DNA from: Thermomicrobiaceae bacterium
GTDB taxonomy: Bacteria > Chloroflexota > Chloroflexia > Thermomicrobiales > Thermomicrobiaceae
Direction: 5' to 3'
Assembly (NCBI GenBank): GCA_007133615.1
Contig: SLMJ01000259.1
Coordinates: forward strand, 1-33,884
DNA: 33,884 nt
The translations under genes and the position numbers were made by a program. Under the pieces are notes generated by a model. The model saw only the letters and a list, made by a program, of their open reading frames with translations. It was not told the origin of the DNA and searched no databases. Position 1 is the first letter of the stretch. Every line of letters begins with the position of its first letter. Positions 3,253-23,043 of this stretch are shown here, in pieces.

Positions 3253-6054
3253 ATGAGTAATCCGCTTCGTCAACTCGCCGACGTTGGCCAGAGTTTCTGG
3301 CTCGACAACCTCAGCCGGGAACTGATCGATTCGGGCGAATTGAGATCGCTGATTGACAGTGATGGATTGCGCGGCATTACGTCCAACCCCACGATCTTCG
3401 AAAAGGCGTTTTCCAGCGGTGATTCCTACGACAGTGAGATTGCCCGCCTTGCCGGTGACGGCCTCAGTGTTGAACAGGTCTTCGAAGAACTCGCGATCGC
3501 TGATATCCGCGATGCAGCCGACATGCTTCGACCGATCTACGACGACACAGGCGGCGCCGATGGCTTCGTTTCACTGGAACTGCCGCCATCACTGGCCTAT
3601 GACACCGAAGGGTCGATCGCCGAAGCCAAGCGACTGTTTGGCGCGGTGGACCGACCTAACGTGATGATCAAGGTGCCGGGAACTGCCGAGGGATTGCCGG
3701 CAATCGAGACGCTGCTGACCGATGGCGTCAACGTGAACATCACTCTGCTCTTCTCGCTGGATGATTATGACAATGTGGCAGATGCATACCTCCGGGCGAT
3801 GAATGCCCGGGTGGAGAGTAATCGACCGCTGAATACCGTCGCTTCGGTCGCAAGCTTTTTCGTAAGCCGGGTGGACAGCGAAGTCGATGGCCGCTTGCAG
3901 GAGATCGCCGATTCAACCGGGGATCCAGAGACGCGGGCGAAAGCCGAGGGATTGATCGGCAAGGTCGCGATCGCAAACGCCCGGATCGCCTACCAGCATT
4001 TCCGCCAGCGATTCACTGACAATCCGGAGTTCCAGAAACTGCAGGAGCAGGGCGCCCAGATCCAGCGTCCGCTCTGGGCAAGTACCAGCACCAAGAATCC
4101 GGATTACCCGGATACGCTCTACATCGAGGCGTTGATCGGGCCGCACACGGTTGAGACGATGGCCCCGAACTCGGTCGACGCATTCCGTAATCATGGCACC
4201 GTCACCGTAGCAATCGAAGACGACCTGGATGACGCCTATCAGGCGATGGAGACGCTGCGCAATCTGGGCATCAGCTACGACGATGTGACCAGAAACCTTC
4301 AGGAGAAAGGCGTCCATCTATTCGCCGAATCCTACGATCAGTTGCTGGCGGGACTCAGTGAGAAGATGCGAAAACTTCAGGGTCCGGAAGCCAACGTATC
4401 CTGCGCAAACATGGACATGGTCGAACCGGGGTTGCAGGACGCGCGGGGAAAGCTGACAGACCAGCAGGCGGTCGAGAAACTGCTGGCCACTGATCCCTCG
4501 CTCTGGAGTGACGATCCCGAGATTCAGGAGAAGGTGCGGAACCGGCTGGGATGGGTCCACGCGCACAAGTGGATGCGTTCCCGACTGGAAGAATTCGATG
4601 AGCTCAAGCAGGATATTCGCTCCGCTGGCTTCTCGCGGGCCATACTGCTGGGTATGGGCGGGAGTAGTCTGGCGCCGGAGGTGCTCTTCAACAGTCTCGG
4701 AAACCGGAACGGGTTCCCCGAGTTGACGGTGCTCGATACCACCAACCCGGATACCATCAGTCGAATTCGGAACTCGCTCGATCTTCAGAAGACGCTGTTC
4801 ATCGTAAGCTCAAAGTCCGGCAGCACGATCGAAACTGCCACGCTCATGAGCTACTTCTGGAATGAAACCGCCAACACGCTGGGAACGGAACAGGCCGGAA
4901 AGCACTTCATTGCGATCACCGACGAGGGCTCGGCACTCGAGGAACAGGCGAAGGGCCTCGGATTCCGGCACGTCTATCTGAATCCAGAGGACATCGGCGG
5001 TCGATATTCGGCGATCTCCTACTTCGGACTGGTTCCGGCAGCGGTTATCGGGCTCGACACCTCGAACCTGCTGACTCATGTCCCGGACGATCACGCTGAT
5101 ATCGAGCTCGGGCTCACACTCGGAACGCTGGCCCGCTACGGTCGGGACAAACTGACGTTCATTCTTCCCGACCGGATCATCGGGCTGGCCGACTGGCTGG
5201 AACAGTTGATCGCGGAGAGTACCGGCAAAGAAGGAACCGGCATCGTCCCGATCAGTCGGGAACCGGTTGCCGGTGCCGAGACCTACGGGTCAGACCGGGT
5301 CTTCGTCGGTATGCAGCTAATGGACGGGGTGGATCGCTCGATCGATACATTCATGCGAGCAGTCGAATCAGCCGGGCATCCGGTGATCCGGATCAACATC
5401 CCGGACATGAGCCACCTCGCCGCGGAGTTTTACCGGTGGGAAGTGGCAACAGCGATCGCCGGCGCGGTGCTTGGGATCAATCCGTTCGACGAGCCAAACG
5501 TCCAGGAAGCCAAGGATCTGACCAATCAGCTGCTCGATGAGTGGAGAGAAATCGGCGAACTGCCAGTACCGATCGCAACGCAGGCGTCGGACGCCGTTTC
5601 AGTTGCCGGTGGTGATCCCAGTTCGCTCAGGGATCCATTCAAGTGGTTCCTCAATCAGGTTCGTCTCGGTGACTACCTCGCCATTCTTGCGTACACCGAC
5701 AACCGGCCGGAAGTCAACGAGCGACTGGCCGAAATCCGGCGACTTCTGCGAGACCGGCTCGGCGTCGCGACAACGCTGGGGTATGGACCACGCTATCTGC
5801 ATTCGATCGGCCAGCTGTACAAAGGCGGTCCACCGATGGGCGCCTTCCTCGAAATCGTTACCCTGCCGAATGAATCGATCGAAATTCCCGATCGAGACTA
5901 TCCATTCGAGGCGCTCTTCGCCGCGCAGGCGCTTGGAGATTTCCAGGCACTTCAGGAACGATCCCGGCCAGTGCTCCGGCTGGTTACCACCGGAGACGAA
6001 ATCGGCGCGCTGGAAGAGATCGTCAGCTCGGTCGTAACGGCAGCGATCCAGTAG
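3253..6054 (+). CDS. tal-pgi: Bifunctional transaldolase / glucose-6-phosphate isomerase
   Basis: This is a 933-residue fusion of two cytosolic sugar-phosphate enzymes. Residues about 1-365 are a transaldolase: the GITSNPTIFEKA motif is near residue 41 and the Schiff-base lysine is Lys140 in VMIKVPGT. Residues about 400-933 are phosphoglucose isomerase: GMGGSS at 467-472, the SKSGSTIET sugar-phosphate site, GGRYSAIS with Arg584, and a C-terminal YLHSIGQLYKGG. Transaldolase moves dihydroxyacetone units between sedoheptulose 7-phosphate and glyceraldehyde 3-phosphate; the isomerase interconverts glucose and fructose 6-phosphates. Fusion would couple fructose 6-phosphate made by transaldolase to regeneration of glucose 6-phosphate for zwf. 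GGAGGG at 3240-3245 sits seven bases before the ATG. It is the first gene of a five-gene operon. Confidence 0.95.
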   Translation: MSNPLRQLADVGQSFWLDNLSRELIDSGELRSLIDSDGLRGITSNPTIFEKAFSSGDSYDSEIARLAGDGLSVEQVFEELAIADIRDAADMLRPIYDDTGGADGFVSLELPPSLAYDTEGSIAEAKRLFGAVDRPNVMIKVPGTAEGLPAIETLLTDGVNVNITLLFSLDDYDNVADAYLRAMNARVESNRPLNTVASVASFFVSRVDSEVDGRLQEIADSTGDPETRAKAEGLIGKVAIANARIAYQHFRQRFTDNPEFQKLQEQGAQIQRPLWASTSTKNPDYPDTLYIEALIGPHTVETMAPNSVDAFRNHGTVTVAIEDDLDDAYQAMETLRNLGISYDDVTRNLQEKGVHLFAESYDQLLAGLSEKMRKLQGPEANVSCANMDMVEPGLQDARGKLTDQQAVEKLLATDPSLWSDDPEIQEKVRNRLGWVHAHKWMRSRLEEFDELKQDIRSAGFSRAILLGMGGSSLAPEVLFNSLGNRNGFPELTVLDTTNPDTISRIRNSLDLQKTLFIVSSKSGSTIETATLMSYFWNETANTLGTEQAGKHFIAITDEGSALEEQAKGLGFRHVYLNPEDIGGRYSAISYFGLVPAAVIGLDTSNLLTHVPDDHADIELGLTLGTLARYGRDKLTFILPDRIIGLADWLEQLIAESTGKEGTGIVPISREPVAGAETYGSDRVFVGMQLMDGVDRSIDTFMRAVESAGHPVIRINIPDMSHLAAEFYRWEVATAIAGAVLGINPFDEPNVQEAKDLTNQLLDEWREIGELPVPIATQASDAVSVAGGDPSSLRDPFKWFLNQVRLGDYLAILAYTDNRPEVNERLAEIRRLLRDRLGVATTLGYGPRYLHSIGQLYKGGPPMGAFLEIVTLPNESIEIPDRDYPFEALFAAQALGDFQALQERSRPVLRLVTTGDEIGALEEIVSSVVTAAIQ

Positions 6055-17632: not shown

Positions 17633-18772
17633 ATGAATATCCACGAGTACCAGGCTGCTGAAATTCTCAAGCAGTATGGGATCCCGATCAATGAAGGGAT
17701 CGTGTGCGACTCCGCGGATGCTGCCGCAGAGGCAGCGCAGAAAATCGGCGGCAAAGTCGTTATCAAGGCACAGGTTCACTCCGGCGGACGGGGGAAAGCC
17801 GGAGGTGTCAAGCTCGCTGACTCGCCAGACGAGGCACGCTCGGTGGCCAGCGAGATTCTCGGGCTCGATATTAACGGCCACATCGTCCACATGGTCATGG
17901 TCGCGCCTGCAGTCGATATCCAGCGCGAGGTCTACCTCGGAGCGGTGATCGACCGCGACGGCCGTGGCGTAACGGTGATGGCGAGCGCCGAGGGTGGCGT
18001 TGAGATCGAAGAGGTTGCGAAAGCAACGCCGGAGAAGATCCACACGGAAACCGCGCACCCGTATCTCGGGCTGCGCGACTACCAGTGCCGCCGCCTCGCC
18101 TTCAAGCTCGGCCTGGAAGGCAAGGAAGTCGGTGGATTCGCGAAGATCGCAAAACAGGTTCACAGGGCGTTCGTCGAGAAGGATGCCGGTCTCTGCGAGA
18201 TCAACCCGTTGATCATCAACGGAGATGGCGAATGGCAGGCGATCGACTCCAAGATCACGATCGACGACAACGCGCTGTATCGACAGAAAGACGCTGAAGA
18301 ACTCCGTGACCTGCGCGAGGAAAACGAAATCGAAGTGCAGGCGCGCTCTCACGGGATCAGCTTCGTGAAGCTGGATGGCAACATCGGCTGCATGGTCAAT
18401 GGCGCCGGGCTTTCCATGGCGACCATGGACGCAGTCAAGTTTCAGGGTGGCGAACCAGCCAACTTCCTTGACGTCGGGGGTGGCGCTAGCGCGGAGCAGG
18501 TCACCACGGCCCTGAATCTCGTGCTTGCCGAGCCAGACGTGAAGGCAGTACTGATCAACATTTTCGGCGGAATCACCCGCTGCGACGTCGTAGCACAGGG
18601 ACTGCTGGAAGCGATGGGCAAGATCGACGTCGATGTACCGTTCGTCATCAGGCTGATTGGCACGAACCAGGCAGAGGGGCAGAAACTGCTCTCCGATGCC
18701 GGAATCACCGTTGTCGAACGTATGGACGAAGCAGCGAAGCAGGTCGTCGCCGCCGCAAAGGGCGCGGCGTAA
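17633..18772 (+). CDS. sucC: Succinate-CoA ligase (ADP-forming) beta subunit
   Basis: SucC is the ATP-grasp and substrate-binding half of succinyl-CoA synthetase, the TCA-cycle enzyme that makes ATP from succinyl-CoA. The 379-residue protein begins MNIHEYQA as usual and has the grasp loop [12 protein letters not shown] at 49-60, EINPL at 189-193 with the glutamate that contacts the phosphohistidine, IDSK and DDNALYRQ metal-site segments, and the succinate loop GGITRCD at 312-318. The frame is open to 17537, but ATG 17633 has GGGAG six bases upstream and the conserved N-terminus. It lies 19 nt before sucD and serves as an internal reference for the divergent copy at 20939. Confidence 0.97.
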
Positions 18773-18791: not shown

Positions 18792-19664
18792 GTGAGCATT
18801 CTGGTGAACAACCAGACCCGGTTGCTCGTCCAGGGGATTACTGGTCGGGAAGGTTCGTTCCACGCCGGCCAGATGGTCGAGTACGGAACAAACGTCGTTG
18901 CCGGCGTCACGCCAGGCGGACTCGGCAAGGAAGTCCATGGCGTACCGGTGTTCAACACCGTCTCAGACGCCGTTGAAAAGACACAGGCAAACACATCGAT
19001 CATCTACGTCCCCGCGCCATTCGCCGCAGACGCGATTTACGAGGCGACCGATGCCGGGATCAAGCTGATCATCTGCATCACCGAAGGCGTACCGACGCTG
19101 GACATGGTGGCCGTGTACCACTACGTCCGGGAGCATGGCGCTCGCCTGATTGGGCCCAACTGCCCCGGTTTGATCACCCCGGATGAGGCGAAAGTCGGCA
19201 TCATGCCTGGCTACATCCATTCCCGGGGACCTGTCGGTCTGGTTTCGCGCTCGGGCACGTTGACCTACGAGGTCGTCAACGCCCTGACCGAAGCCGGGCT
19301 GGGCCAGTCGAGCGCGGTCGGCATCGGTGGAGACCCGATCATCGGGACGAACTTCATCGATGTACTGGAGCTCTACCAGAACGATCCAGAGACCGAGGCG
19401 ATCGTGATGATCGGCGAAATCGGTGGTTCAGACGAGGAGCAGGCAGCGGAGTACATCAAGAAGCATGTCACCAAGCCGATGGTCGGCTTCATCGCCGGTC
19501 AGACCGCACCGCCCGGCAAGCGGATGGGCCACGCTGGAGCGATCATTTCTGGTGGCGAAGGAACTGCTGCCGCGAAGATCGAGGCGCTCAAAGCCGCTGG
19601 CGTGAAGGTCGCAGACACCGCGGCAGGTGTCGCGGACATCATGAAAGCGGAGATGAAGGGGTAG
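18792..19664 (+). CDS. sucD: Succinate-CoA ligase (ADP-forming) alpha subunit
   Basis: SucD binds CoA and carries the phosphorylated histidine. The 290-residue protein shows [11 protein letters not shown] at 11-21 for CoA binding, GPNCPG at 121-126, GEIGGSDEE from 208 with Glu209, and MGHAGAII with the phosphohistidine at His247. These are textbook positions for a functional enzyme. The start is GTG at 18792 with GGGAGG five bases upstream; an open upstream extension inside sucC is not used. It pairs with the gene just before it. Downstream are two hairpins of dispersed-repeat type. Confidence 0.97.
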
Positions 19665-20834: not shown

Positions 20835-20938
20835 GACCTCAGTCTATCGCACGCGGGCGTGCTCACTCAGACTTGACGCTGGACGGAAAATCCACGATTC
20901 TGTGGCATCACATAGCCCCGGAACGGGAAGGATGTACG

Positions 20939-22153
20939 ATGGCGAGAATTCTGGAACACCACGCGAAACAGATCTTTGCGCAGGCCGGAATTCCAATTCC
21001 GGAGGGTTATCCCGCAATCTCCTCTGATCAGGCGGCGACAATTGCCGAGGGCATGGATGGTCCGGTCGTCATCAAGGCACTCGTTCCGGTCGGCAAACGT
21101 GGTGAGGTCGGCGCAGTCCAGTTCGCCGAAGATTCCCGTGGCGCCGCAATGGCAGCGCGGGATCTCATCGGGCGCTATATCGGCGCATACATGGTCGATA
21201 CCGTGCTGGTCGAAGAGCGAATCGACATCGAGAGTGAACTTTATCTGTCAATCATCATTGACCGCGACGAACGAAAGCCACGTGTTGTTATCAGCGCCGA
21301 TGGGGGAGTGAGCATCGAGCGGGTCGCCCAGGAGAATCCAGACGCGATTGTTTCTGACACCGTCTCGATGACACGCGGACTCCCGGAATACCGGGCTCGA
21401 GAGCTCTGGACGCAGGCTGGCATAAGCGGGCCGATCATCCCGGCACTGGGACAACTGACGCACCGGCTCTGGCGACTGTTCGTCGAACATGATCTGCGCG
21501 TCATCGAGATCAACCCGCTATTTCACACACCGGACCAGAAAATCGTTGCCGGGGACGCGGTGATGTCGGTCGATGACTCTGCAGGCTTCCGCCACCCCGA
21601 ACTTGCCCGATTCGTCGTACCTGGGACAGACCGGTCCTGGCGACCGATGACCGAACTGGAAGCAGACGCTCAGCGAGTACACGAACTCGATCCATACCGG
21701 GGATCAGCGAGGTATCTCGAACTCGAGGGCGGGAACATCGGATTCCTCTGCGGTGGTGGCGGAGCCAGCCTGCTGCTCTACGATCACCTCATCGAAGCTG
21801 GAGGCGAACCGGCCAACTATGCCGAGATCGGCGGAAATCCGACCGAACAGAAAGTCGCCGGCATGACCCGGGTCGTCCTCAGCAAGCCCGGCGTCGAGGG
21901 CCTGTTCGTCGCCCACAACATCACCAACAACACCCAGACCGACGTCATTGCCCGTGGTGTAGTTACCGGGATCGAGCATGCCGGTCGAGACCCACGAACA
22001 ACGCCCGTCGTCGCCCGTGAAGCCGGGCTACACGATGAGGAAGGCCGGAGAATCTTCGAAGAGGCCGGCATACGCTACTTGGGCGAAGACACAACCCTGT
22101 CCGAGGCCGCCCGTCAAATGGTGGCGGCGATGACGAGCGGAGGTGAGCGATGA
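20939..22153 (+). CDS. Divergent SucC-like carboxylate-CoA ligase beta subunit
   Basis: This 404-residue ATP-grasp protein is clearly related to SucC but not orthologous to the copy at 17633. It retains MARILEHHAKQIFA at the start, EINPL at 190-194 and GDAVMSVDDSA for metal binding. The grasp loop reads VGKRGEVGAV (51-60) instead of [10 protein letters not shown]. The succinate loop GGITRCD is replaced by NITNNTQTD at 327-335. There are about 15 extra residues between the two domains. GGNIGFLCGGGGASLLL and NYAEIGGNPTEQ recall the ATP-citrate lyase/citryl-CoA synthetase side of the superfamily. The substrate is therefore probably not succinate; malate, citrate, sulfoacetate or a methylated dicarboxylate are possible. 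ATG 20939 has GGAAGG seven bases upstream. Confidence 0.85.
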   Translation: MARILEHHAKQIFAQAGIPIPEGYPAISSDQAATIAEGMDGPVVIKALVPVGKRGEVGAVQFAEDSRGAAMAARDLIGRYIGAYMVDTVLVEERIDIESELYLSIIIDRDERKPRVVISADGGVSIERVAQENPDAIVSDTVSMTRGLPEYRARELWTQAGISGPIIPALGQLTHRLWRLFVEHDLRVIEINPLFHTPDQKIVAGDAVMSVDDSAGFRHPELARFVVPGTDRSWRPMTELEADAQRVHELDPYRGSARYLELEGGNIGFLCGGGGASLLLYDHLIEAGGEPANYAEIGGNPTEQKVAGMTRVVLSKPGVEGLFVAHNITNNTQTDVIARGVVTGIEHAGRDPRTTPVVAREAGLHDEEGRRIFEEAGIRYLGEDTTLSEAARQMVAAMTSGGER

Positions 22154-23043
22154 CCCGGCTGATCGATGACTCGTTGCGACTGCTCGTCCAGGGTATTACC
22201 GGCCGGGAAGCCCGTATGGTCACCAGCCACATGATCGAGTACGGCACGAGCGTTGTCTCTGGCGTAACACCTGGCAAAGGCGGCGAGGATGTCGACGGCG
22301 TGCCGGTGTTCGACACGGTCAAGCAGGCAATTGTCGAAACAGCACCGAGCGCGTCGCTGATCTCGGTTCCACCCGCCGCGACACTCGACGCCGTTGGCGA
22401 GGCGATATCAAGCGGGATTCGTCTGATCGTGATCGCGACGGAAGGCATCCCCCAACACGATGTCCTCCGCATGCTGGAACTGTCCGACGAATCCGGCACC
22501 GTCATCATCGGGCCGAACTCGGTCGGCGTGATCAGGCCGGGAGATAGCGTGAAGATCGGCGCGATTGGTGGCGAGCATCCAGCTCGCGCGTTCGTTCCGG
22601 GGCGGATCGGCGTCATCTCTCGAAGCGGTGGCATGACGGCCGAGGTCGGGCTGACGCTTCGCCTGGCCGGCCTCGGCGTCAGTACCGCGATTTCCGTTGG
22701 AGGTGATGCGCTCATCGGCAGCACCCCGGCGACGTTGCTTGCAGAGTTCCAGGAAGATCCGGAAACCGACGCCGTGGTGCTGTTTGGAGAGCCCGGCACC
22801 CGGTTCGAGGAAGATGTTGCGAACCACATTGCGGAAAGCAAATTCACCAAACCGCTCGTGGCACTAATTGCCGGAGGGTTTACCGAGCATCTCCCGGAAG
22901 GGACTGCCTTTGGTCATGCCGCAGCGATCATCGAGGGCGACTCCGGCCGCCCCAGCAACAAACGCAAGGTGCTGGAGACGGCCGGAGCGAGGGTAGCTCG
23001 AACACTGGACGACGTTGCCGGGTTGCTGAAGAACGCGGGTTAG
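22150..23043 (+). CDS. Divergent SucD-like carboxylate-CoA ligase alpha subunit
   Basis: This 297-residue partner of the preceding gene overlaps it by four bases (ATGA), with GGAGG six bases upstream. [10 protein letters not shown] at 11-20 for CoA binding is intact. The phosphohistidine is kept as His256, but in FGHAAAII rather than [14 protein letters not shown] has become GPNSVG at 121-126, and GEIGGSDEE has become GEPGTRFEE, keeping Glu214. The pattern says the enzyme still works through a phosphohistidine intermediate but has changed around the substrate. The stop is overlapped by the convergent methyltransferase stop in TTAG. Confidence 0.87.
   Translation: MTRLIDDSLRLLVQGITGREARMVTSHMIEYGTSVVSGVTPGKGGEDVDGVPVFDTVKQAIVETAPSASLISVPPAATLDAVGEAISSGIRLIVIATEGIPQHDVLRMLELSDESGTVIIGPNSVGVIRPGDSVKIGAIGGEHPARAFVPGRIGVISRSGGMTAEVGLTLRLAGLGVSTAISVGGDALIGSTPATLLAEFQEDPETDAVVLFGEPGTRFEEDVANHIAESKFTKPLVALIAGGFTEHLPEGTAFGHAAAIIEGDSGRPSNKRKVLETAGARVARTLDDVAGLLKNAG

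Follow-up and report, generated by a model that had tools for sequence, protein, structure and literature searches.

Based on the alignment, phylogeny and gene context of a second succinyl-CoA-synthetase-like gene pair in a 33,884-nucleotide stretch of a Thermomicrobiaceae bacterium assembly (GCA_007133615.1, contig SLMJ01000259.1; the whole stretch is referred to as the window), we propose that the pair represents a family of ADP-forming (S)-citramalate-CoA ligases with the succinyl-CoA synthetase (SCS) fold. For the family this assignment appears rather probable, and for the window organism alone somewhat less so. The family would then constitute a new, third citramalate route, besides citramalate lyase and CoA-transferase, completing methylaspartate-dependent glutamate breakdown and a methylsuccinate pathway in citF-less members of the Bacillota, Bipolaricaulota and Thermomicrobia, a wider proposal for and against which we see about equal weight. 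If correct, a dedicated ligase explains how the pathway is completed in genomes that have methylaspartate ammonia-lyase and lack citF, corrects the 'succinate-CoA ligase' name that such genes tend to get, and provides a clean test of re-specification of the SCS fold by two substrate-site changes.

The gene pair and its altered substrate loops

The second alpha/beta pair is complete and lies 1.3 kb from a canonical sucCD, with the phosphohistidine His256 and the EINPL motif kept, confirming the preliminary description of this DNA. Its features and the adjoining canonical genes are listed below in window coordinates.

20925–20932, + strand: Shine-Dalgarno-like GGGAAGGA, 6 nt 5' of the beta ATG (direct sequence reading)
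20939–22153, + strand: beta subunit of an ADP-forming CoA ligase, ATP-grasp and ligase domains, 404 aa (ATG 20939, stop 22153)
21089–21118, + strand: ATP-grasp loop VGKRGEVGAV, beta 51–60
beta 190–194: EINPL, present in the second pair
21830–21841, + strand: GGNP, beta 298–301, common with citryl-CoA synthetase (GGGA in SucC)
21917–21943, + strand: substrate loop NITNNTQTD, beta 327–335, replacing the succinate-binding GGI(T/V)R loop
22150–22153, + strand: ATGA in which the beta stop and the alpha start overlap (direct sequence reading)
22150–23043, + strand: alpha subunit, CoA-binding and ligase domains, 297 aa (ATG 22150, stop 23043)
22510–22527, + strand: GPNSVG, alpha 121–126 (GPNCPG in SucD)
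22624–22644, + strand: SGGMTAE, alpha 159–165, with Ala164 at the SCS Tyr site
22909–22932, + strand: FGHAAAII of alpha, with phosphohistidine His256
17633–18772 (beta) and about 18792–19664 (alpha): canonical sucCD, above NCBIfam cut-offs

With ATP-grasp_2 in beta, CoA_binding and Ligase_CoA in alpha, and the phosphohistidine, the pair belongs to the SCS-type ADP-forming acyl-CoA synthetase superfamily. The beta subunit matches PF08442 (E 7.9e-48) and PF16114 Citrate_bind (E 2.7e-10), the alpha subunit PF02629 (E 4.9e-20), PF00549 and PF13607. The structures, predicted as single-chain models, have the SCS fold (pLDDT 88 and 90), and Foldseek searches with them returned this general fold and nothing more specific. 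Identity to the adjoining canonical pair is 34% for beta and 44% for alpha, and no NCBIfam model reached its cut-off in a search of the pair: the SucC and SucD models PRK00696 and PRK05678 scored 270 vs 370 and 274 vs 336 bits, and the malate-CoA ligase model NF010647 scored 223 vs 604 bits.

The four loop changes first noted in the window (VGKRGEVGAV, NITNNTQTD, GPNSVG and FGHAAAII) read as described, and each is conserved in kind across 27 aligned pairs spanning Thermomicrobia, Chloroflexota, Bipolaricaulota and Bacillota. Ten residues, beta K53, N300, P301, T329, N330, N331 and Q333 and alpha F254, P215 and G140, are invariant in 27/27 family members and occur in 0/25 SucC/Mtk and 0/22 SucD/Mtk sequences compared; the beta stretch N330 N331 T332 Q333 is likewise present in all 27. 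Since these residues are fixed in the family and absent from the compared SucC, SucD and Mtk proteins, the aligned sequences indicate that the loop changes are not chance or decay.

In SCS, the C4 carboxylate of succinate is bound by the hydroxyl of an alpha tyrosine together with main-chain amides of the GIV motif in beta (PMC11489063). Judged by alignment, both reported ligands of this distal carboxylate are replaced in the family: NITNNTQTD takes the place of the beta loop, and the tyrosine, found in 22/22 SucD/Mtk sequences, is Ala in 26 and Ser in one of the 27. Alpha Ser159, His256 and Asn123, identified by alignment as the residues for the phosphate and the reacting carboxylate, are retained, His256 being invariant in the family, SucD, Mtk and CcsB. 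An acid other than succinate, as suggested earlier, is thus in agreement with the altered site as well as with the tree tests below; no specific substrate had been given at that stage, and genome context now points to one.

The altered positions resemble those of citrate-binding relatives. In the alignment, citryl-CoA synthetase has the same residues as the family at beta K53 (Gly or Ala in SucC/Mtk), N300, P301, N330 and N331 and at alpha G140 and F254, and so does ATP-citrate lyase (ACL) at N330 and T332; the ACL residues named in the source consulted, Asn346 and Thr348, come from inhibitor docking only. Citrate is, like citramalate, a tertiary 2-hydroxy acid, so that N330 and T332, shared with the citrate binders, support citramalate as the substrate.

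Phylogeny and extent of the family

In the beta tree, the query family stands apart from a group of 26 rows (support 100/98) made up of SucC, Mtk and an Azospirillum pair, and the position of CcsA is unresolved. In the alpha tree, a split with 100/100 support divides SucD/Mtk (23 rows) from a side on which CcsB and two smaller groups are found together with the query family (27 rows, 99/97). Placement inside the SucCD clade, named in the preliminary description, together with comparable succinate activity, as the outcome that would speak against a separate family, was looked for in the trees and by the approximately unbiased (AU) test, which rejects a position of the query within the SucCD/Mtk set at p 8.9e-5 (beta) and 8.0e-4 (alpha). 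On these trees the family lies outside SucCD and MtkAB. The proposed likeness to the citryl-CoA synthetase branch is supported by the shared motifs, the Citrate_bind match and the 100/100 alpha split; the exact relation of the family to CcsAB is not settled by the trees, as they are midpoint-rooted with long CcsA and CcsB branches. The CcsAB and ACL rows are partial sequences taken from PDB alignments.

A genome scan recovered 38 loci with beta relatives at 45–79% identity and one further member (44%) in another Chloroflexota genome; the beta relatives compared overall range from 38 to 79%. Closest among named relatives are Sphaerobacteraceae and Thermomicrobiaceae metagenome-assembled genomes (MAGs; L034, L035 and L069; beta identity 77–79%). 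Among 299 genomes sampled from the phylum to which genome G316 belongs, 10 gave a match at E < 1e-160, the remaining matches (1e-80 to 1e-88) being at the ordinary SucC level. The pair is patchy in distribution, because four genomes of the same family have canonical-level SucC matches only.

Other divergent SucCD-like groups were seen alongside. One, found in two Chloroflexota genomes (L078:4194-10313 and L079:7526-9658), has NVVSNTRVD as its beta loop, and its beta subunit is about 36% identical to that of the query. It is preceded in L078 by an acyl-CoA dehydrogenase and a CitE/HpcH-type lyase, so that it too may be a CoA ligase turned to a different substrate. A 38% relative (L077:8793-10906, genome G089) carries the loops NFSNFTG and GPSAQG near a tartrate-dehydrogenase-like gene and a TctA-like transporter, both named by eye, and probably uses a further substrate.

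Gene context and the proposed role

Context was counted in 35 informative loci outside Thermomicrobia, within the fetched flanks; many are close Bacillaceae relatives, and the counts are not independent. A CitE-type lyase and an MmgE/PrpD protein each stand near the pair in 30/35 loci, a succinate dehydrogenase (SDH)/fumarate-reductase-like protein in 28 and a class I fumarase in 14, and TRAP or DASS transporters are common. Two loci titled Chryseobacterium sp. ISL-80 (L045) and Pseudomonas sp. ISL-84 (L067) show the Cytobacillus gene order, and their organism labels appear doubtful. In the three Bipolaricaulota loci (L037, L071 and L036) the pair occurs with the glutamate mutase genes GlmS and GlmL. 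In L037 (Acetothermia), a CitE-like gene is followed by beta, alpha, GlmS, GlmL, GlmE and methylaspartate ammonia-lyase, and the four proteins from GlmS onwards exceed their NCBIfam cut-offs. A distant Chloroflexota genome (G270, locus L076) has fumarase alpha-beta, ligase beta-alpha, a CoA-transferase and a CitE-like gene in a single run. Across whole genomes, methylaspartate ammonia-lyase is found in 8/39 that bear the ligase, with citF above cut-off in only two of the eight and absent in six, and class I fumarase in 27 of the 30 searched, including 7/8 with the ammonia-lyase.

Citramalate activation, the step ahead of the CitE-type lyase, has no named enzyme in these clusters; the ligase fits this step. 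ATP would phosphorylate alpha His256, the phosphoryl group would pass to a citramalate carboxylate, and its displacement by CoA would yield (S)-citramalyl-CoA with ADP and Pi, which the CitE-type lyase would cleave to pyruvate and acetyl-CoA; substrate, product, stereochemistry and neighbour roles are here those we infer from the gene context. Citramalate would be formed from mesaconate by class I fumarase, in agreement with its reported action as a mesaconase (PMC4682846). In Bacillota, mesaconate would derive from methylsuccinate via an MmgE/PrpD isomerase, as characterised in Pseudomonas and Cupriavidus (PMC12290011), and the SDH-like flavoprotein, presumed to oxidise methylsuccinate to mesaconate. 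Alternatively, it would be provided from glutamate by glutamate mutase and methylaspartate ammonia-lyase. In the published account, citramalate lyase is the last enzyme of the methylaspartate route, and mesaconate is used via a CoA-transferase and citramalyl-CoA lyase (PMC4682846); SucCD seemingly does not accept citramalate (PMC9875883). The open-access literature and family libraries yielded no ADP-forming citramalate-CoA ligase or citramalyl-CoA synthetase, although a subscription-journal report could exist; this, with the NCBIfam result, upholds the earlier suggestion of an uncharacterised family.

In a Desulfosporosinus MAG (L109:363-16966), classical CitF/CitE-type lyase genes stand beside the methylaspartate cluster and the ligase pair lies elsewhere, so that the two routes can coexist. 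In a Desulfovirgula MAG (L112:9113-15098), a further SucCD-like pair lies in the neighbourhood of methylaspartate ammonia-lyase, together with a protein that by eye resembles the citrate synthase family, possibly a different citryl- or citramalyl-CoA arrangement.

In the window organism itself (3.8 Mb assembly, 98% complete) we find one CitE-like protein (L074, 35% identical to that of Acetothermia), one class I fumarase alpha (53% to that of Anoxybacillus) and an MmgE/PrpD protein 47–50% identical to copies in Cytobacillus ligase clusters. Linkage of the ligase to citramalate supply and citramalyl-CoA cleavage is thus seen in the family, and in this genome the partner genes are present but unlinked, so that the substrate of the window pair is assigned by orthology; the pathway is possibly fed by methylsuccinate, mesaconate or citramalate. 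The surroundings of the CitE-like and MmgE/PrpD genes hold no pathway cluster, and a functional link of the pair to its window neighbours (a HEAT-repeat protein, a methyltransferase and a LuxR-type regulator) was discarded, nothing metabolic being among them. As a discriminating co-occurrence marker in Thermomicrobia, the CitE-like protein fails, occurring also without a close ligase relative.

Several points weigh against the citramalate assignment. The CitE-like, fumarase and MmgE/PrpD genes of the window organism are all on contigs other than the pair's, the pair has no pathway neighbours in the window or in L034, and a search of the genome found no methylaspartate ammonia-lyase. Class I fumarase was not found in two of three close Thermomicrobia MAGs, which are incomplete, and CitE-like genes (52–53% identical) also occur in same-family genomes with only a canonical-level SucC match. 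The CitE-like proteins score below the cut-off of the citramalyl-CoA lyase RipC, what the SDH-like and MmgE/PrpD neighbours do is presumed from their families, and the pocket comparison rests on alignment. Two genomes hold both citF and the ligase: G306, with a GlmS-GlmL-GlmE-ammonia-lyase-fumarase cluster and citF elsewhere, and G322, where citF adjoins the cluster.

Alternatively, the pair may activate mesaconate, itaconate or methylsuccinate directly, with a hydratase or dehydrogenase then acting on the CoA ester, in line with the C5-dicarboxylate genes of the same neighbourhoods. However, SDH-like enzymes use free acids, class I fumarase (14 loci and L076) hydrates the free acid, so that activation would follow hydration, and the neighbour clusters shared between loci contained no conserved protein recognisable as a CoA-ester hydratase. 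Direct activation is therefore unlikely, even though Pseudomonas SucCD has been credited with some itaconate activity (PMC9875883) and haloarchaea are reported to activate mesaconate and then hydrate it (PMC5592240). Slightly less probable still is a malate-CoA ligase like MtkAB, whose CitE-like partner would cleave malyl-CoA to acetyl-CoA and glyoxylate: SDH-like protein, fumarase, ligase and CitE-like protein also fit a sequence from succinate via malate to malyl-CoA, and Mtk pairs adjoin CoA ester lyases, but the family lies outside the Mtk-containing clade and has altered both the Tyr and the AGIN loop that Mtk retains. If the pair were a citryl-CoA synthetase and the CitE-like protein its citryl-CoA lyase, this would account for GKRG, GGNP, NNT, IGAIGG and FGHA, common with CcsAB, and for the Citrate_bind match; we consider it quite improbable, as a tricarboxylate is at odds with the C5-diacid neighbours, CcsB has Thr at the position of the conserved GPN Asn, and a sister relation to the long-branched CcsA and CcsB is not established. 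That the pair is a redundant, drifted SCS paralogue of unchanged substrate, as the common fold, catalytic residues and domain order might suggest, is hardly credible given loop changes fixed across four phyla, the AU rejection of SucCD/Mtk membership and NCBIfam SucC/SucD scores 60–115 bits under cut-off.

Elsewhere in the window, a single open reading frame (3253–6054) fuses a transaldolase domain to a phosphoglucose-isomerase domain, upstream of 6-phosphogluconate dehydrogenase, glucose-6-phosphate dehydrogenase and OpcA-like genes.

Comparison with known systems

The pair has in common with SucCD the fold, domains, phosphohistidine, SRSG, GPN Asn and EINPL, but it lacks both contacts to the second carboxylate, Tyr and GGI(T/V)R, forms a separate clade and scores under the NCBIfam cut-offs. 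MtkAB also has its ligase genes near a CoA ester lyase gene, but groups with SucCD, keeps Tyr and AGIN and stands among serine-cycle neighbours. With CcsAB (PDB 6hxq), the pair shares SGG(M/L)T and GRF.E..FGHA in addition to the motifs named above, and with both CcsAB and ATP-citrate lyase the Asn and Thr of the substrate loop; the differences from CcsAB are an identity of about 30–37%, the long branches and the CcsB Thr in place of the GPN Asn.

The citramalate lyase and CoA-transferase routes are not ADP-forming ligases of the SCS fold. They resemble the proposed ligase route in moving citramalate towards pyruvate and acetate or acetyl-CoA (PMC4682846). The 3-sulfopropionate-CoA ligase HpfYZ and the sulfoacetate-CoA ligase SqwKL use other substrates, the comparison being based on their description. 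They nevertheless provide a precedent for SucCD relatives using other acids, and for HpfYZ the authors implicate the same two sites (PMC11489063) that are altered in the family described here.
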